Virus record (IMG/VR): IMGVR_UViG_3300043137_000363
Coordinates: 1 to 26,565 of that record
DNA: 26,565 nt
From: a virus
Reading direction: 5' to 3' (one strand)
Part shown: piece after piece, positions 347 to 26,523 of the stretch
Layout of the letters: each line of letters begins with the position of its first letter
How positions within the stretch are numbered: the stretch's first letter is position 1
Position numbers and translations under genes: made by a program
Notes under the pieces: model-generated
What the model saw: only the letters and a program-made list of their open reading frames with translations
What the model was told of the DNA's origin: nothing
Database searches by the model: none

Positions 347-1236
347 GAGCCGTTGGCGAAAAAACTTGTTGGATCAAACAGCATGTCTGTTGTAAAGTCT
401 TCACCACAGTGCTCGCACTTGATCTTTAGTGTTCTGGTAATACCATATTCACCAAAGCGTTTCAATTCTTGATCCAACCGGTCTGCAGATGCTCTGTCTA
501 AGTTTTTAACCCAATCTTCAATGTGTGCAGCATTGGTCACTTCAAGTCCTTCGGGTAAAGTAACACTGGTGATGCTTTGTGCTAAAATTTCCTGACTTAG
601 AGTTACCAATTGGTCGTAGCCTCTATTTGCAATGTCAGCTTTTTGATCAATTGTGATTTTTTCATTGGCTTCTGCTGCTTGCAATTGACGCATGCTTGTA
701 AATTGTACACGCAACAATTTGCTTTGTGCTTCAAGTGTATAAGGCTTGAGCATAACTCGCACACCTGAAGCCAGCATAACATTGCCAACGTCATTGGGAA
801 TTTCTCTCAATGTTGCCAACACCCCGCCTAGACCCACTGTAACATGTTGACTACGACCATCGCTTTCTAAGCAGTTATGATTGACGTTCAAGCTCATGTC
901 GTCGCCATAGCTGGTCATACGCATAGCAACCAAAATTGCATCAATGTCAGGAGCCGGGATTTCATTTACATTGGCAATGTCTGGACATACTGATGCAATC
1001 ACTTGTTTTAGTGCTTCGCCGTTGAGTAGCGCATCTGGATTTTTCAATGCAAGTTCATCTTTTGCAGTCATTGGGTAAATGGCCAACTCATTAGTGTCAG
1101 ATACCTTGGGTGCAACACTGTAAAACTTTCCCTTTGACGGGAGTTCCAAATACGTACCGGGCCTACGATAGTACTGAGCCAATGGGTTAGGTGCTGCTGC
1201 AACAATTGGTCTTTTTAGCGGGTTTGAGTTATCCAT
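343..1236 (-). CDS. 26: baseplate hub subunit, T4 gp26 family
   Basis: A 297-residue protein matching the T4 baseplate protein family that contains gp26, which acts in assembly of the central baseplate hub. Visible signatures are the N-terminal LxxYYRRPGTYLELPSKGKFY segment (about residues 18-40), the TAKDELALKNPDALLNGEAL block (about 57-76), and a C-terminal CEHCG pair followed by LFDPTSFF before the end. The Cys pair, with the HNC near residue 120, could bind zinc. It is longer than T4 gp26 (208 residues). The start ATG has AAGGA 8 bases upstream, and a minus-strand CATAAATA late-promoter candidate lies at 1286-1293. The stop overlaps the next gene's TTG start. The tape measure gene diverges from it. 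Confidence 0.8.
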   Translation of the reverse strand: MDNSNPLKRPIVAAAPNPLAQYYRRPGTYLELPSKGKFYSVAPKVSDTNELAIYPMTAKDELALKNPDALLNGEALKQVIASVCPDIANVNEIPAPDIDAILVAMRMTSYGDDMSLNVNHNCLESDGRSQHVTVGLGGVLATLREIPNDVGNVMLASGVRVMLKPYTLEAQSKLLRVQFTSMRQLQAAEANEKITIDQKADIANRGYDQLVTLSQEILAQSITSVTLPEGLEVTNAAHIEDWVKNLDRASADRLDQELKRFGEYGITRTLKIKCEHCGEDFTTDMLFDPTSFFANGS

Positions 1237-1252
1237 GTGTTTAATCCTTAAC

Positions 1253-1260
1253 GGTAAATA
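1253..1260 (+). promoter_or_regulatory. T4-type late promoter candidate GGTAAATA (tape measure)
   Basis: CGGTAAATAG lies 69 bases before the tape measure start. It shares CGGTAAATA with the sites at 24384-24391 (minus) and 25748-25755 (plus). T4-like late promoters need only a -10-type TATAAATA element read by a gp55-type sigma factor. The assignment rests on repeated occurrence directly upstream of genes. Confidence 0.55.
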
Positions 1261-1265
1261 GGTTC

Positions 1266-1275
1266 ATAGGCCTAT
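1266..1275. repeat. palindrome ATAGGCCTAT between opposed late promoters
   Basis: A perfect 10-base palindrome lies near the middle of the gap between the plus (1253-1260) and minus (1286-1293) late-promoter candidates, in the short stretch where the two 5' leaders would overlap. AAATAGG at 1257-1263 can also pair with CCTATTT at 1271-1277. Confidence 0.4.
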
Positions 1276-1285
1276 TTCATAATCA

Positions 1286-1293
1286 TATTTATG
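1286..1293 (-). promoter_or_regulatory. T4-type late promoter candidate CATAAATA (gp26)
   Basis: The minus strand reads CATAAATAT, one base from the T4 late consensus TATAAATA, 50 bases before the gp26 start codon. It would give a leader of roughly 40 bases that carries the AAGGA ribosome site. Confidence 0.6.
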
Positions 1294-1328
1294 TCCCACT
1301 TTAACGCCTACAGGACCGGAATTTATAA

Positions 1329-4280
1329 ATGTCTGAACAAGCACTAATTGACGCTTTAGAAAAATTAACCGACAAGATAGACGAAATGTCTGGTAATCTT
1401 GGTCGCGGAACCAAGGCTAGGACGTCTCAAGTGCCAGGTAAGTCTGGCAGCAACGCAAAAACACCAGAAGAAAAAAACGCTGCTAAAAGCATGGATGCCC
1501 TAGACAAGATGGCACGAGCTGGAATTAAGACACAAAAGGAAAGTAATAAAGCCAACGAAGAACAAACTGATTCGGTCAAAGAACTGGCCAAAGCCCAAGG
1601 AAAGGCCACTGAAGAACAGAGAAAACTTGAGCGCAGCATGGAGCGTGCCAAAGAAGGATTCACTTCTTTTGGTAAGTCGTTGTTTAACGAAAAGACTAAC
1701 GTTGCAGATGCACTTGGCTCGTTAGGTGGAACTTTAGCTAAAAGCACTGGTGTAATTGGACGATCGTTTGGTGGCATGGCCACTGGTATTGGTCTAGCAC
1801 TTGGACTAATGCAAAATTTTGCAGACGCAGCTAGAGATTTAGGCACGTTTGCTGACCTTGGTGCATTCCAAATTGGATCAGTTCGTCAAGCTAAGGTACT
1901 AAGCGGACTTGGCGATAGTTTTATCAAGGTCATTGAACAAAGTAATGGTACATTTAAGGGACTGGGCAGTACATCGCAACAAGCGGTTGAAAATTTAAGT
2001 AACCTTTCTCGCAGTTTCCGATATGGTAGCAGTTACTTAAATTCTGCAATGAAAAAATCTCTTGGCACTGATTTAGTCAAGAGTGTTGATAAAGCTGCAT
2101 ACGCTATTGCTGCAATGGGATTAAGCCAAGAAGAGCAAGCAAACTTAGAAGCATCAGTTCTGTCAACAACAATGATGACTGCTAAGAATGAAGATGATGC
2201 TAAGAAAAAGTTTGTAGAAGGCATGTTGGCAACTAGTACATCTGCTCGCGGATTAAGCGATACATTTGGTATGAGTGCTAAGAAAATTATTTTGGCCATG
2301 GCTGAATTTAGAGGATCACAGGCCGGTAAATTTGCGGCGCTAGAAGGAAACGCAGGCGCCGATGCCATATATGCTGTATTAAAAGAGAAATTCCCTTCGT
2401 TGTCAAGTGATCCTACTAAAATGGCCAACATTGCCGCGGCGTATGCTGAAGGAAATATGGCCAAGGTGTATTCAAACTTGGAACAGGGCAATGACGGTCA
2501 ATTAGCAACACAATTATTTGATATGTTTCAAGGTACCATTGGTAAAGATGGTAAGTTAGACGAAAAGAAGCTTAATGCAAATGTGGAACAGAAACGATCC
2601 ACAATGGAAACAATGTACGCTTCTAGAAAAGATTTACAAGGCTATGGTGGTGACGCTGACAAATATGCACAGTCGGCAATTGAATTAAAATCGTTCTTTA
2701 AAGATCGTGATATTGCACAGTCTGTAAAGCCTAGAGATGAAGCTGCCAAGTCAAAGATTAATACTTCTGAATTAGAAAACATTAAGTCAATGAATTCATT
2801 GACTGCTGCACTGGAAAGTTTGCGTGGAACATTAGTTGGAATATCAGCTGCCATACTTGGACTAACAGGGGCAATTGGCGGTATTGCACTAGCAGGCGGT
2901 CTAGGCGCACTTACTGGAGCCACTGGCGGCATTGGTAAAGCTGCTTCAGCAGCAGGCGGAATGGTCATGAGCGGAATGGATTGGATGACTAACAAGTATC
3001 AGTCCGTAACGGGAAAATATGGGCCTCCTGTACCTGATGGCCTTAAAAAGCCAAGCTTCATGGACAAAATGTCAGACAGAGCCAAGCAATCAGGTGTAGG
3101 CGGTAAAATTGGCGAGCTTGGCAGTAAGATTGGAGAAAAAGCGTCGGGTGCAATGGGCGGCTTTGCAGATTTCTTGGGCAAGCTAGGAGATGACAAAACA
3201 ATAAAAGGTGCAGGAACTCTTGCATTACTGGGTGGTGCATTGGCCATGGCAGCACATGGATTTGATACATTTGGTAAAGTAACGTGGGAAGGAATGCTTA
3301 AAGGAACTATTGCCATTGGCGGATTGATTGTTCTTGCACGTGGCATTGGAGAAGCATCAACTGGCATGCTTAAAGGAGCTGCTGCAATTGCATTGCTTGG
3401 CGCCACAATGTGGGTTGCAGGTAAAGGGTTCAGCACTTTCAATGATTTAAATTGGGAAAGTATGTTAAAAGGCGTAGTTGCTTTAGGCGCATTCAGTGTT
3501 GCTGCAATACTAATGGGCACAGCTTTGCCAGCTATTGCATTGGGTGCAGTTGCAATCGGCGCATTAGGGCTAGCAGTTGGTGTACTTGGTGTTGGAATGA
3601 TTCCAGCAGCGTATGCAACAAACTTATTTTCTGAAGCAATTGTCAAACTTGGTGAAGTATCTGGTGGCAATCTAATTGCAATTGGTGCCGGATTGGCTGC
3701 AATTGGCGCTGGCGCTGTAGTATTTGCAGCCGGCATGGCTGTAGCTTCCGCTGGCAGTATATTAACTGGCATTATGAGCATATTTGGTGCAAAAAGTCCG
3801 CTTGACAGAATTAAAGAGTTCGTACCAATGGCTGATAAGATCAGTTTAGTCGGCGCTGGAATACAAGCATTTGGAGCAGGTGTAGCATCAATTGCATCCA
3901 GTGTTGCCAGTGTTAACACTGACATATTAACAACTCTCAAAGACAAACTACTGGAGTTTGCTGCTGCTGGTTCATCAGATGAGATTAAATTAACTGCCGA
4001 ATACTTGTCATCGATTGGTACTTCACTGGGAACTATTGCAAATATTGGCGACATTAGATTGCCAAGTACGTCAAGTATGAGTGTTCCTACAGTGTCAACT
4101 GACATTAGCAGTTCATTAAGCCCAGGGGAAAGTATAGTCAATGACAAGGCAAGCTCGTCATTGACACCGGAAGCTATTTCCCAATTAATGGGATATTTGT
4201 CGAGTATGCAAAACGATTTAGCAGCGATCCGTGGCAACACAAAAACGGATTCGTTCTCTGCACCGGTTAGACTAAGTTAA
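1329..4280 (+). CDS. probable tail tape measure protein
   Basis: A 983-residue protein. The N-terminal ~110 residues are charged and helical (Lys/Glu-rich, coiled-coil-like). A mixed helical domain follows to about residue 500. Long Gly/Ala/Ile/Leu-rich hydrophobic stretches come next, from about 505 to 850 (for example the GISAAILGLTGAIGGIALAG segment). A Ser/Thr-rich tail ends the protein. This layout is typical of tape measure proteins, which set tail length and help DNA entry through the host membrane. It is much longer than T4 gp29 (590 residues). No lysozyme or peptidase motif was seen. The ATG has only a modest CGGA/AGGA ribosome site. It lies between the hub gene and the portal gene, a tail-head junction of the cluster. 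The large membrane-active profile could also suit an ejected internal protein. Confidence 0.62.
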   Translation: MSEQALIDALEKLTDKIDEMSGNLGRGTKARTSQVPGKSGSNAKTPEEKNAAKSMDALDKMARAGIKTQKESNKANEEQTDSVKELAKAQGKATEEQRKLERSMERAKEGFTSFGKSLFNEKTNVADALGSLGGTLAKSTGVIGRSFGGMATGIGLALGLMQNFADAARDLGTFADLGAFQIGSVRQAKVLSGLGDSFIKVIEQSNGTFKGLGSTSQQAVENLSNLSRSFRYGSSYLNSAMKKSLGTDLVKSVDKAAYAIAAMGLSQEEQANLEASVLSTTMMTAKNEDDAKKKFVEGMLATSTSARGLSDTFGMSAKKIILAMAEFRGSQAGKFAALEGNAGADAIYAVLKEKFPSLSSDPTKMANIAAAYAEGNMAKVYSNLEQGNDGQLATQLFDMFQGTIGKDGKLDEKKLNANVEQKRSTMETMYASRKDLQGYGGDADKYAQSAIELKSFFKDRDIAQSVKPRDEAAKSKINTSELENIKSMNSLTAALESLRGTLVGISAAILGLTGAIGGIALAGGLGALTGATGGIGKAASAAGGMVMSGMDWMTNKYQSVTGKYGPPVPDGLKKPSFMDKMSDRAKQSGVGGKIGELGSKIGEKASGAMGGFADFLGKLGDDKTIKGAGTLALLGGALAMAAHGFDTFGKVTWEGMLKGTIAIGGLIVLARGIGEASTGMLKGAAAIALLGATMWVAGKGFSTFNDLNWESMLKGVVALGAFSVAAILMGTALPAIALGAVAIGALGLAVGVLGVGMIPAAYATNLFSEAIVKLGEVSGGNLIAIGAGLAAIGAGAVVFAAGMAVASAGSILTGIMSIFGAKSPLDRIKEFVPMADKISLVGAGIQAFGAGVASIASSVASVNTDILTTLKDKLLEFAAAGSSDEIKLTAEYLSSIGTSLGTIANIGDIRLPSTSSMSVPTVSTDISSSLSPGESIVNDKASSSLTPEAISQLMGYLSSMQNDLAAIRGNTKTDSFSAPVRLS

Positions 4281-21893: not shown

Positions 21894-23240
21894 TTAGTTG
21901 ACAATACGCCACCAGCCTTGATCAAATATTCCTTCGACTGCCAATACCCACTCTGTTCCTGTAAAGTACAGTTTTTTCATGGTATTTGCATTTGTTGTAT
22001 ATGCACTGGTATTGGCTGCACTTGCGTCAAAGCTAACAATCCAGTCACTGCCATTGTATTCAATAATATCATTTTCATCAGCAACCACAGTGCCCCAGAA
22101 CCCATTTTGAACTGGTGAGTTGGTCAACAAGTATCGTTGTCCAATGGCAGCACCTGGAATGTTTCCGTTGCCAGGATGACTTCTTTCTGGATCAATGATT
22201 CCATTGATCATTGTGATAGTATCATTTGGTAATGTTGATGTATCTAAATTATAGCTCAGTACGTTTTGATTATTTTCCACAGCTGAAACTTTTAAAATAA
22301 TTTCGTTGGTATCAACTGAACTTCCCAGCTTCAATCTAATTTCTGTAATGCCATTGTTGATTCCGCCAAATTTACTAAAGTGTTCTGTCCAGCTCAATTC
22401 GCCCCCGGCACTGCTCAGTGGATCAATGGATTGATTTGTATTGGTTAACAGTTGAATGTAATCTTCAGTGACCTTAATGTGTCTATCTTCAAACGTGATC
22501 CAGCGGCGGTCTTGGAATCCGCTGTTGATAATAATATCGTCAATGAATCCAAAATCTGCACCTACATTATTTAAAATGCTATGAATTAGAACTTGGCGCT
22601 TTACCTTGGCAGGTGGTGTTAAGAAAATTGGCAATGTAAAAATTAAACTTGCAACGTCAATGATGTCGTCGGTGCCTTGCGGAATACTACGTGCTGTCCA
22701 TGTTATATTGATAAGTTCAACCACTGCCAAACTTGTCCAGTCATACGGATTCTGGCTGCTTTGTAAGTTTACACTTGGATTAAACAGCAACAAAATTTGT
22801 TCTAGCAACTGTAGTTTTTGCTCAGTATTACTGGTCCAAATGTCCACGTTAATTGTTAAGTCGTACGGGATTGGGCTATGTCTATCTAAGCTATAAGTTT
22901 CTCCAACCTGATCTTGATACGAACCTGCTTCTGAATCATATGCCTTTTCATAAACCTGAACTGAATCTTGAAACGTTGGGCTGATTCTTCTTTCTGCATT
23001 TGGCAATAGTTCAGCAATATAGCAACTGATTGCCGGCACGCTGTTTATTGTGTTTTCACTATTTTTACGAAGAATGTGTTGACTCATGCGAGTAGTGTCG
23101 CCGTAACGAACTGGCACTTGATGATAGTAATCATTGCCGCTGGCATCCTTGCCCATCTGGACAGAAAATCCACCAAACAGTCTCATGAACTGTAGTAGCC
23201 AACGTCTTATCTGTTGGTCATAAAAATATTGTTGACTCAT
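21894..23240 (-). CDS. 15: tail sheath stabiliser gp15 with long C-terminal extension
   Basis: A 448-residue protein. Residues 1 to ~235 match T4-like gp15, which caps the finished tail and joins it to the head. The start is SQQYFYDQQIRRWLLQFMRLF, followed by VPVRYGDTTRMSQHILR. Then come PIPYDLTINVDIWTSNTEQKLQLLEQILLLFNP and IDVASLIFTLPIFLTPP. T4 gp15 is 272 residues; here ~200 more follow. The extension carries a TFEDRHIKVTEDYIQLL linker, a beta-rich region, and a final domain with GQRYLLTNSP, GFWGTVVADENDIIEYNGSDW and LYFTGTEWVL...WWRIVN. That last part resembles virion-surface DUF2793-like domains. The start overlaps the gp14 stop (TAATG). Confidence 0.82.
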   Translation of the reverse strand: MSQQYFYDQQIRRWLLQFMRLFGGFSVQMGKDASGNDYYHQVPVRYGDTTRMSQHILRKNSENTINSVPAISCYIAELLPNAERRISPTFQDSVQVYEKAYDSEAGSYQDQVGETYSLDRHSPIPYDLTINVDIWTSNTEQKLQLLEQILLLFNPSVNLQSSQNPYDWTSLAVVELINITWTARSIPQGTDDIIDVASLIFTLPIFLTPPAKVKRQVLIHSILNNVGADFGFIDDIIINSGFQDRRWITFEDRHIKVTEDYIQLLTNTNQSIDPLSSAGGELSWTEHFSKFGGINNGITEIRLKLGSSVDTNEIILKVSAVENNQNVLSYNLDTSTLPNDTITMINGIIDPERSHPGNGNIPGAAIGQRYLLTNSPVQNGFWGTVVADENDIIEYNGSDWIVSFDASAANTSAYTTNANTMKKLYFTGTEWVLAVEGIFDQGWWRIVN

Positions 23241-24343
23241 TAATTATCTGCCTTTGGTTTTGTAAACACCTTACTCAATGATTGACGCTGATCAATTGTA
23301 GACTTCGTGGTACTCAAATTATTTGTACCTGTAGTTTGTGTGTTATTGATAAACCCACCTGCGTTCACTGTTGCTTCTTTCCATCCAACTTGATTTAAAT
23401 TATCCATTACTCTATGCCACTTGGTTCCGCGATATACAAATAATCGTTCCGGAGTAAAGTCCATTCTGATAAACAAGTCATTTTGACTAGGCGAAGTTGG
23501 GAAGCTTAATCCATTTGCAATACCTGATGTATCTCCGTGTGTTGCTGAGTACTCGGTGGTGTTGACAGTGATATCAGCTACACCGCTACCATCGAATCCT
23601 GAGATAACTGGAACAAAAGTTGCGCCATTGATCTCAGGATTGTTATAACCAGCAGCTGGTGTAACAACTTCAGCTGATGCAAGTACAGCATTGGAAATTT
23701 GAATTTCTTTCTGGTATGTGCTTAGAGCATTTTTCAAACTGTCCTCATCTTCTGGGTCACCTAAGATACTACGATACTCTTGCGCATCGTTGATAGGAGC
23801 AACTTTGATGCGCCATAAGTGAGGCCACCAGGTTGGACCAAATCCTTCAGCAGCACGACTTGCATCTTGTACAGCATAAAATTTGTTAATGCTTTTTGCA
23901 GTAGCATCCAACAGTAAGTCGTCATTCAAATGGGGCAATTCAATAACATCACCTGCCATCAGCTTACGCCCTAAACGTTCTACCATTTCATTTGTGTGGA
24001 ATGTGATAAACAACGTATCAGCATTTAAGAATAATCCAAATTGACTTAGGTCAAAGTCTTGATCGCTAACATTATATGTGCCACGAAGCTCAAATACACT
24101 GGTGTCATAAACACGGTCACGGTTCTCTAAGAACAGCAAGTCCTGAATGTCCATTTCATTTATTTCACCCTTAGCAGCCAGATTGGGCTTTGCTGGGTCC
24201 GAACCGTCTTCGACAGCCGCAGGTCCAAGATACTTGTGGACCAGTATTGTGGTACCACCAGCACTTACTGCTTCACGAATGACTCGATCCTGATAGTAAA
24301 AGTCATTGGTTTTGGCGTTTTTCCAAAGTGATATTTTAGGCAT
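23240..24343 (-). CDS. 14: neck protein gp14
   Basis: A 367-residue homologue of T4 gp14 (256 residues), which with gp13 forms the collar joining the packaged head to the tail. Diagnostic blocks are WKNAKTNDFYYQDRVIREAV (about 7-26), DLLFLENRDRVYDTSVFELRG (about 68-88) and DFDLSQFGLFLNADTLFITFH. Next come VERLGRKLMAGDVIELPHL (about 121-139), FYAVQDASRAAEGFGPTWWPHLWRIK and LSTYQKEIQISN. The C-terminal ~130 residues include an inserted Gly/Thr-rich region with FIRMDFTPERLFVYRGTKWHRV and a Gln/Thr/Ser-rich end. GAGGG lies upstream of the ATG, and a minus-strand GGTAAATA late site is at 24384-24391. First gene of the minus unit gp14-gp15-Nudix-unknown. Confidence 0.88.
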   Translation of the reverse strand: MPKISLWKNAKTNDFYYQDRVIREAVSAGGTTILVHKYLGPAAVEDGSDPAKPNLAAKGEINEMDIQDLLFLENRDRVYDTSVFELRGTYNVSDQDFDLSQFGLFLNADTLFITFHTNEMVERLGRKLMAGDVIELPHLNDDLLLDATAKSINKFYAVQDASRAAEGFGPTWWPHLWRIKVAPINDAQEYRSILGDPEDEDSLKNALSTYQKEIQISNAVLASAEVVTPAAGYNNPEINGATFVPVISGFDGSGVADITVNTTEYSATHGDTSGIANGLSFPTSPSQNDLFIRMDFTPERLFVYRGTKWHRVMDNLNQVGWKEATVNAGGFINNTQTTGTNNLSTTKSTIDQRQSLSKVFTKPKADN

Positions 24344-24352
24344 AATTCCCTC

Positions 24353-24399
24353 AGGACCATATTAGGTCCTATTTTTGTTGTAGTATTTACCGTATAGGA
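24353..24399 (-). promoter_or_regulatory. alternative hairpins in the gp14 leader
   Basis: AGGACC (24353-24358) and GGTCCT (24365-24370) form a 6-bp hairpin just before the gp14 ribosome site. TCCTAT (24367-24372), which overlaps it, can instead pair with ATAGGA (24394-24399) on the other side of the late promoter. RNA begun at the promoter can form only the first; read-through RNA could form either. Confidence 0.4.
24384..24391 (-). promoter_or_regulatory. T4-type late promoter candidate GGTAAATA (gp14)
   Basis: The minus strand reads ACGGTAAATAC, 40 bases before the gp14 ATG. It is identical in its core to the sites at 1253 and 25748. Confidence 0.65.
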
Positions 24400-24404
24400 T
24401 CTAC

Positions 24405-24433
24405 TTGACAGACCCGCGCAGATAAGTTATAAT
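24405..24433 (+). promoter_or_regulatory. perfect sigma70 promoter TTGACA-N17-TATAAT
   Basis: The -35 TTGACA (24405-24410) and -10 TATAAT (24428-24433) both match the full bacterial sigma70 consensus with ideal 17-base spacing. The start point would be near 24440, giving a ~26-base leader with GGAG (24455-24458) before the ATG at 24466. In T4-like phages, strong sigma70 promoters drive early genes. Confidence 0.88.
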
Positions 24434-24465: not shown

Positions 24466-25728
24466 ATGGCTACAGCAACCAAAAAACCTGCAATGAAATT
24501 GCCAGCTAAGAAAAAGACGCTAGCCCGTCCCACACGCACTGGTAAAAAAACAGCAACAACAATGAAAGTTGATGCACAAGGCGGTATCAAACTAAGTGCC
24601 ATTCCAGTAACTGACATCAAGTACATGGGCGATGAACCAGATTGGTCCAATCAGGATTCTTACAACGATTCCGATCGTCGCTCACACATGGCCCGTAGCT
24701 TCAACTGGTACAATTACTCATGTGATCGTAAACAGGCTCGTAGCTTCTTTGAAGACTATTGCAGTACTGTTGAAGAATTCAAGACATACAAACTAAAGTT
24801 CAAGCGTTTACCCGACACTGCGTTTGAGCTAACCACTGGTTGGTTGAGTCGCATGATTCTAGCCGGCTTCAAGATCCGCGAAGGTGAAGACCGTATCATT
24901 ATTGAACAAGTTGCCAAATTGGAAAAGCGACTGCTTGAGGAAAAAGAAGAAGTAGCGGTTGTCAAGCCTGGCGAAATTGTAATCAAGAAAGAAACTATCC
25001 AGGATCGACTTGCTGAAAAGTTCAGCGAAGCCGTGGGCGAAATCGAAGGCGCCATCGACGAGTTTGTAACCGACGGTAAAGAATACTCAACATTTAAATT
25101 GCTGAGTGCGCAAAATATTGCAGTGCAGTACGCAACTAAAATTCCCGACATCATCCAACCTCGCATCGACGAAATGAACGAGTTGCTCGAAGGTAAAGAT
25201 GCTCAGTTGCTGGAAGCATACAAGTTCATGGGCAAGCGTGAAGTTAAAGCTCTTATTAAGTTTTACGAAACTGTCATCAATGATGCAATGGCTTATAAGA
25301 CAAGCAAAATTGCAACTCGAGCCAAGCCAAAACGCAAGCCAGTTCCGCCTGAGCGTACAGTACGAGGTCTCAAGTATCTTAAAGAATTTGCAGAGCTGGG
25401 ACTTAAGAGTATCAACCCAACAGAAATTTTGGGTATGAGCGAACTGTGGACTTACAACACTAAAACTCGTAAAATTGGACGCTTTGTTGTTGCAATGCAC
25501 GGTGACATGGTAGTGGGCCAACTTGGTGTTAAGGGCAGTGCCATCATTGGCTTTGACGAAATCAAGAGTGTTACAAAAACACTGCGAAAGCCAGCAGAAA
25601 AGCTAGCAGAGTTTAAGACACTTGGTAAGCCACAGCTTCGCAAGTTTATGGACACTATTAAAAGCGTAGAAGTCAAACTAAAAGGACGTATCAGTCCAGA
25701 AACGATCCTGCTTCGTGCTATTAAGTAA
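24466..25728 (+). CDS. unknown protein with basic N-terminal tail, probably early expressed
   Basis: A 420-residue protein. Residues 1-35 are Lys/Arg/Thr/Ala-rich (KKPAMKLPAKKKTLARPTRTGKK in pieces), resembling a nucleic-acid binding tail. A conserved-looking block follows: IKYMGDEPDW, then MARSFNWYNYSCDRKQARSFFEDY (about 76-99, given in part). After it come helical charged segments (130-215), a coiled middle, and a second basic stretch RAKPKRKPVPPERTVRGLKYL (about 285-305). A beta-rich part follows (ELWTYNTKTRKIGRF). I recall no function for this family. It sits alone between gp14 (divergent) and gp13, behind a perfect sigma70 promoter, so early expression within a late cluster is likely. 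A nucleic-acid binding or host-takeover role is possible but unproven. Confidence 0.72.
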   Translation: MATATKKPAMKLPAKKKTLARPTRTGKKTATTMKVDAQGGIKLSAIPVTDIKYMGDEPDWSNQDSYNDSDRRSHMARSFNWYNYSCDRKQARSFFEDYCSTVEEFKTYKLKFKRLPDTAFELTTGWLSRMILAGFKIREGEDRIIIEQVAKLEKRLLEEKEEVAVVKPGEIVIKKETIQDRLAEKFSEAVGEIEGAIDEFVTDGKEYSTFKLLSAQNIAVQYATKIPDIIQPRIDEMNELLEGKDAQLLEAYKFMGKREVKALIKFYETVINDAMAYKTSKIATRAKPKRKPVPPERTVRGLKYLKEFAELGLKSINPTEILGMSELWTYNTKTRKIGRFVVAMHGDMVVGQLGVKGSAIIGFDEIKSVTKTLRKPAEKLAEFKTLGKPQLRKFMDTIKSVEVKLKGRISPETILLRAIK

Positions 25729-25737
25729 GTTTTAATC

Positions 25738-25770
25738 AAGTGTCTCCGGTAAATACTACTGGAGACACTT
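25738..25770 (+). promoter_or_regulatory. perfect inverted repeat hiding the gp13 ribosome site, late promoter in loop
   Basis: AAGTGTCTCC (25738-25747) and GGAGACACTT (25761-25770) are perfectly complementary over 10 bp around a 13-base loop, GGTAAATACTACT. The right arm contains the gp13 ribosome site GGAGA and abuts the ATG at 25771. The loop begins with the late-promoter candidate. RNA reading in from upstream would fold and block translation; RNA begun at the late promoter lacks the left arm. No U-run follows, so it is not a terminator. The same logic is established for T4 gene e and a few other T4 genes. Confidence 0.82.
25748..25755 (+). promoter_or_regulatory. T4-type late promoter candidate GGTAAATA (gp13)
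   Basis: CCGGTAAATAC lies 15 bases before the gp13 ATG. A start about 6 bases downstream would give a leader of about 10 bases that just includes GGAGA. Confidence 0.7.
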
Positions 25771-26523
25771 ATGGCAGACAACAAAACAACAAATCGTGCA
25801 AAAACAATAAAGTACATTGAACTTAGCCTCGGCGGAGGCATGGTCGATGTTGAACTTGACAAAGAGCACTACGATATGGCTATCGATAAAGCTGTAGCAA
25901 AGTATCGTCAACGTAGCAGTCGTGCAGTTGAGGAAAGCTTTATGGTGTTAACATTGACACCAAACGAAAGCAATTATACTTTACCTGATGAAGTAATTGA
26001 AGTACGTGCAATTTACCGCCAAAATGCAGGCGGTGTTGGCTCAACTGGCACAAGTTTTGAACCGTTTGAAGCTGGTTACTTAAACATGTACATGTTAAAT
26101 GCGTCTGCTGCCGGCGGCCTGGCAACATTTGAATTATGGATGGGACAACGAGAGCTGCTAGGTAAAATGTTTGGCACTTATGTTATCTACACATGGTCCA
26201 ATACCAGCAAGCGACTTAATTTACATCGACACATCAAAGGTGACGAAGCAGTAATCATCCATACGTATAATTATCGTCCAGACGAATCATTGCTGTCTGA
26301 TACCAGTTGTGCGCCTTGGATTAAAGATTATGCATCTGCTGTGGCAAAAATGACACTTGGTCAAGCTCGTAGCAAGTTTGCACAGTTAGCTGGCCCACAA
26401 GGTGGTGTGTCGTTAAACGGTAACGACTTGATTGCACAAGCCCAAGCTGAAATGGAAAAGTTAGAGGAAGATCTAAAAACATATGCTGACGGTGGAACAC
26501 CTCTAGGCTTTATCTTTGGATAA
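25771..26523 (+). CDS. 13: neck protein gp13
   Basis: A 250-residue homologue of T4 gp13 (309 residues), the collar protein that with gp14 completes the packaged head for tail joining. Visible signatures are IELSLGGGMVDVELDKEHYDMAIDKAVAKY (about 16-45, in part), the LTLTPNESNYTLPDEVIEVRAIYR block (about 59-83, in part) and LNLHRHIKGDEAVIIHTY (about 149-166). After these comes APWIKDYASAVAKMTLGQARSKF (in part), then AQAEMEKLEEDLKTY and the end GTPLGFIFG. In T4, genes 13 and 14 are adjacent and co-directional; here gp14 is on the other strand with the basic unknown gene between. Translation is probably held for late RNA by the hairpin just upstream. Confidence 0.88.
   Translation: MADNKTTNRAKTIKYIELSLGGGMVDVELDKEHYDMAIDKAVAKYRQRSSRAVEESFMVLTLTPNESNYTLPDEVIEVRAIYRQNAGGVGSTGTSFEPFEAGYLNMYMLNASAAGGLATFELWMGQRELLGKMFGTYVIYTWSNTSKRLNLHRHIKGDEAVIIHTYNYRPDESLLSDTSCAPWIKDYASAVAKMTLGQARSKFAQLAGPQGGVSLNGNDLIAQAQAEMEKLEEDLKTYADGGTPLGFIFG

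Follow-up and report, generated by a model that had tools for sequence, protein, structure and literature searches.

A candidate start-site-dependent hairpin switch at the neck gene gp13 of jumbo phages of the T4 superfamily

On longer early transcripts of phage T4, the Shine-Dalgarno sequence (SD) and/or the AUG of genes e, soc, 49, and I-TevI is held in a helix, and the late promoters of e lie in the sequence encoding the 5' strand of that helix, so that late RNA escapes it (PMC3014915). A published list of genes with a sequestered ribosome-binding site (RBS) includes soc, e, 39, 25, and 26 along with endonuclease genes (PMC2988022). I-TevI, I-TevII, I-TevIII, segB, and mobE of phage Aeh1 have their late promoter inside an RBS-sequestering hairpin and lie within early or middle transcription units; the read-through argument has already been made in a review of these T4-family endonuclease switches (PMC2988022). 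In phages CBB and GAP32, an ATAAATA motif has been reported upstream of structural genes, and the part of that report available to us does not mention leader hairpins for it (PMC5259590).

We analyzed a 26.6-kb virus record (26,565 nt, hereafter the window) from a jumbo phage of the T4 superfamily, whose portal, protease, capsid, sheath-stabilizer, and neck proteins have matches in T4-type families. By its architecture, the leader of its gp13-like neck gene would belong with the e and I-TevI type of switch. As in T4 e, the start region is predicted to be sequestered only in RNA begun upstream, and the late promoter lies in the hairpin, here as judged from computation and motif position. The target differs, being a jumbo phage neck gene with a predicted late start at the SD itself. 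In the homing endonuclease switches it is the inserted gene that is regulated, whereas here it would be a virion gene preceded by a presumed early gene that only some relatives carry. Like CBB and GAP32, the window has a putative late promoter core before structural genes, in a group with a gp55-like sigma factor (PMC5259590). A reading made earlier from the sequence only had named the timing mechanism as known for T4 e and a few other T4 genes, and the published accounts bear this out (PMC3014915, PMC2988022). It had also noted no known case at a neck gene. We found no report of one in the literature examined, but a structural gene as target is not new in kind, given that T4 genes 25 and 26 are already listed (PMC2988022).

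The gp13 leader and its promoters

The features of the locus, in window coordinates, are as follows.

23240 to 24343, minus strand: divergent virion structural gene (phrog_11591)
24384 to 24389, minus strand: TAAATA of the divergent structural gene (GGTAAATACTA), its extended motif identical to that of the gp13 element
24405 to 24433, plus strand: consensus sigma70 promoter TTGACA-17-TATAAT, 12/12 match, predicted early start at ~24440
24466 to 25728, plus strand: phrog_11903 gene, 420 aa, presumed early, upstream of gp13
25738 to 25747, plus strand: left (5') arm of the hairpin, AAGTGTCTCC, predicted only in RNA begun upstream and covarying with the right arm
25748 to 25760, plus strand: late-promoter-like element between the arms, GGTAAATACTACT
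25750 to 25755, plus strand: TAAATA, putative gp55-type late promoter core, resembling T4 TATAAATA
25761 to 25770, plus strand: right (3') arm, GGAGACACTT, holding the SD GGAG (25761-25764)
25771 to 26523, plus strand: gp13-like neck/head-tail adaptor gene, 250 aa (phrog_211, E 5e-38)

The neck protein of PA5oct is 43% identical to the window gp13. The phrog_11903 protein had no matches in Pfam, NCBIfam, or PDB sequences, and the 2.2-kb region had no matching record at the DNA level in the phages collection. In most relatives that lack phrog_11903, the phrog_11591 gene directly adjoins gp13.

The perfect 10-bp inverted repeat at 25738-25770, with the SD in its right arm and the gp13 ATG immediately following at 25771, was confirmed in the sequence. 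The flanking GGT/ACT bases pair too (one pair being G.U) and RNAfold adds a 14th pair (GGTA/TACT, up to four extra pairs), giving an RNA stem of 13 to 14 pairs with the loop AAUAC. TAAATA therefore lies partly within the stem; the proposal of a late promoter inside the hairpin stands, but not its placement wholly in the loop. Perfect 10-bp inverted repeats are common in the window, with seven distinct places compared with 0.8 expected in shuffles, and the argument for a switch thus stands on position and covariation. The further ones, at 302, 6072, 6219, 10075, 16509, and 19855, have loops of 3 to 13 and are possibly terminators.

Alone, the hairpin folds at -21.0 kcal/mol (RNAfold), and the surrounding 101 nt fold at -27.7 compared with -15.7 for shuffles (z -4.3; 0 of 200 shuffles). 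Stem pair probabilities are 0.8 to 1.0 even within a 1,461-nt read-through RNA, and each SD base has a computed unpaired probability of 0.00 in read-through RNAs of 101 to 1,461 nt, in agreement with the suggestion that the read-through leader is shut. The companion suggestion of an open late leader fared well in short RNAs, since the SD bases are unpaired at 0.77 to 1.0 in RNA begun at 25760-25762 and 39 to 91 nt long, and only in part in computed late RNAs of ~190 nt, where two of the five SD bases (GA) pair with downstream sequence. No Rfam covariance model matched at E ≤ 1 in 25500-26000.

The sigma70 promoter noted earlier is exact at all 12 positions and precedes the co-directional phrog_11903 gene, which is probably transcribed early. 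At 71 loci both phrog_11903 and the divergent gene could be placed, and 62 of these have a sigma70 promoter with 0 to 2 mismatches before phrog_11903 (shuffled mean, 4.3 mismatches); for most of the loci L325-L333, no good sigma70 promoter was found in the 170 nt preceding this gene. No intrinsic terminator or terminator-like site was found on the plus strand between phrog_11903 and gp13 (25728-25771). The leader of the divergent structural gene has its own hairpin, AGGACC/GGTCCT at 24353-24370, which on the plus strand is followed by ATTTTTG and is terminator-like.

TAAATA is not over-represented in the window as a whole (13 seen, 20.5 expected). In the related genomes G002 (27 vs 7) and G001 (22 vs 11), coding-direction copies are enriched upstream of genes. 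A gp55-type late sigma factor is present in 8/8 large relatives tested, a count that does not include the window, which is a fragment. The late 5' end would fall near 25761, at the SD itself, if the T4 promoter spacing applies here, as we assume.

Covariation and start-site opening cost

Compensatory changes in the arms, which the sequence-only reading had proposed to look for in aligned leaders of relatives, were found. Across 32 gp13 leaders, 93.9% of cells are paired compared with 37 to 42% in slid controls, both partners have changed in 34 cells (a count that none of 500 shuffles reached), and five hairpin pairs show double changes; kinship inflates such counts, and the slid controls retain it. 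The inner pairs are frequently G.U, with half of the leaders carrying G.U at one inner pair, which points to RNA. TAAATA is invariant in A1 and lies inside the hairpin throughout the close clade, and its position would leave the late RNA without most or all of the left arm. Other lineages pair differently. The L051/L054 group has a left arm complementary to the region of the start codon (ATTGCCAT ... ATGGCAAT), and the left arm and promoter core overlap in RaK2-like phages, where the SD is paired all the same.

For each leader we computed dd, the extra cost of opening the start region in the read-through RNA compared with the late RNA, and ranked it among all TAAATA leaders obtained from a simple open reading frame scan of the window and of each genome. 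The gp13 leader had the highest dd in the window (20.3 kcal/mol) and in G001 (18.8), G002 (13.9), and GAP32 (19.8), where the hairpin is likewise strong. In PA5oct it was not top-ranked. T4 served as positive control, with I-TevII located by annotation and e by its 164-aa frame; e ranked first (14.7 kcal/mol, a lower cost than that of the window gp13) and I-TevII second. Leaders at rank ≤1/60 numbered 6 in G002 (2.2 expected), 7 in GAP32 (2.7), 2 in G001 (1.6), and 2 in PA5oct (2.9). The genome-wide excess is therefore weak, amounting to a few genes per genome and no general rule.

Several other leaders scored highly. That of GAP32_373, an HNH endonuclease gene (L137:18799; GAP32 record 278,799), is a strong promoter-in-hairpin leader (17.0 kcal/mol) resembling the T4 endonuclease switches, and those of GAP32_315 and GAP32_032 have high scores too. 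The strongest in PA5oct belongs to EST35_0209 (L148:14990), a hypothetical gene lying amid structural ones (GTGTCTCCG ... CGGAGAC). Near position 116455 of T4, divergent late promoters lie between a 208-aa and a 249-aa gene, presumably 26 and 51 judging from size and location; these promoters form an inverted repeat, which makes both start sites costlier to open. Inspection by eye suggested a second switch in the window, at a 148-aa holin-like gene (10356), which the computation did not support: mean opening cost was 4.7 compared with 3.75 in shuffles, and 2 of 24 distinct leaders from the window and relatives reached rank ≤2/40 (1.8 expected).

Direction of the upstream gene

We collected 139 distinct gp13 leaders that have TAAATA at most 55 nt away and sorted them by the strand of the next upstream gene; one was left unclassed. 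The strand was assigned from homology to phrog_11903 or phrog_11591, from the annotation of the record, or, failing these, from the longest open frame. With a threshold set after the data were seen, dd was at least 8 in 71 of 84 co-directional leaders compared with 2 of 54 divergent ones (Fisher 5e-23), and median dd was 14.3 and 1.9, respectively. After clustering of gp13 at 60, 70, and 80% identity, the association had p = 0.038, 0.005, and 2e-6, and is thus modest at 60%. Six of seven tree contrasts agreed by the threshold; in the seventh (L355 vs 47) the two sides are nearly tied, the co-directional one being slightly higher. One close comparison involves L028, which has no phrog_11903 between its two late genes and only a weak hairpin (5.4). 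Contig 3300021429_000775 (L257 and L019 both denote it), with a gp13 83% identical to the L028 one, has a strong hairpin (19.6), and close relatives such as L019 carry both phrog_11903 and the hairpin. No phrog_11903 was found in the GAP32 and XaC1 records, and RaK2-like phages have other small genes upstream of gp13.

In the divergent leaders (most of L335-L412), TAAATA usually stands 11 nt before the ATG, a spacing that suggests leaderless or nearly leaderless late mRNA; dd for these reflects a different leader shape, and normally spaced divergent leaders score low too. The 13 of 84 co-directional leaders without a strong hairpin include PA5oct (6.7), the L078/L415 group (2 to 4), and several single loci. 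In L460, an open frame in antisense orientation, in which an HNH-like motif was recognized by eye, lies between phrog_11903 and gp13 (1023-1856, minus strand). The right arm and promoter there match those of L465 and the left arm is gone, which may be a mechanical loss by gene insertion rather than relaxed selection. The sequence-only reading would have been refuted by relatives that keep gp13 without the repeat. Part of the family does consist of such relatives, chiefly at loci that lack the co-directional early gene, these 13 leaders being the exceptions.

These data bear on three other explanations. The hairpin could end the early phrog_11903 transcript, as an intrinsic terminator or a 3' barrier, and overlap the gp13 start by chance; it begins 9 nt past the stop codon of the upstream gene, and U runs follow the stem in some relatives (GAP32, XaC1, and 121Q). 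In the window, however, no U-run follows, so that the locus lacks the combination of GC-rich stem and U-run, and at least five T among the 8 nt that follow the stem occur in only 2 of the 71 strong-hairpin leaders. The left arm pairs with the start codon in one lineage, and the SD or AUG lies in the 3' arm in 71 of 71, partly by construction because leaders were picked by start-site opening cost. We consider a terminator unlikely. Still less probable is a hairpin that reduces gp13 translation from all transcripts as dosage tuning, or that senses a ligand or protein, with escape by late RNA incidental. The partial re-pairing of the SD in late RNA of ~190 nt would fit such a role, but TAAATA within the hairpin across the close clade predicts late RNA without most or all of the left arm, no Rfam family matched, and dependence on the upstream gene is not predicted by it. 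A role at the DNA level, as an operator or a structural part of the late promoter, with which the rough symmetry of the repeat about a core invariant in A1 would agree, is very improbable, since the arms change together while the core stays constant, the common inner G.U pairs would be mismatches in DNA, and divergent relatives without the repeat still keep TAAATA.

A proposed switch insulating gp13 from early read-through

Our analyses support the sequence-only reading, and we favor, with a probability of roughly 0.83, a translational switch dependent on the start site, in which the hairpin insulates gp13 against early read-through. This view draws on the hairpin, the covariation, the predicted sequestration and release, the conservation of both promoters, and the dependence on the upstream gene, all of them computed. 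RNA polymerase would transcribe phrog_11903 from the sigma70 promoter (24405-24433) and, with no terminator found in between, proceed into gp13. In this read-through RNA, 25738-25770 would fold and hide the SD, and gp13 would probably be silent. Later, gp55-type RNA polymerase would start near 25761, from the TAAATA within the hairpin; the late RNA would lack the left arm, its SD would be mostly free, and gp13 would be translated.

We also lean slightly toward the broader view that such RNA insulators arise and decay repeatedly as phrog_11903, with its sigma70 promoter, gains or loses its place upstream of gp13 in the jumbo phage late module. Read-through would be the selection, and lineages would reach different pairings, with the SD, with the start codon, or with the promoter within an arm, by the same logic.

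Reviews of T4 have argued from a handful of cases that hairpins silence late genes on early read-through transcripts. The gp13 gene alone supplies many leaders with and without a co-directional upstream gene, and presence of the hairpin tracks this arrangement for the most part, so that the read-through argument becomes open to comparative testing. As proposed, the switch would also operate in jumbo phages, namely those of the RaK2, GAP32, and related groups, which include cultured phages.
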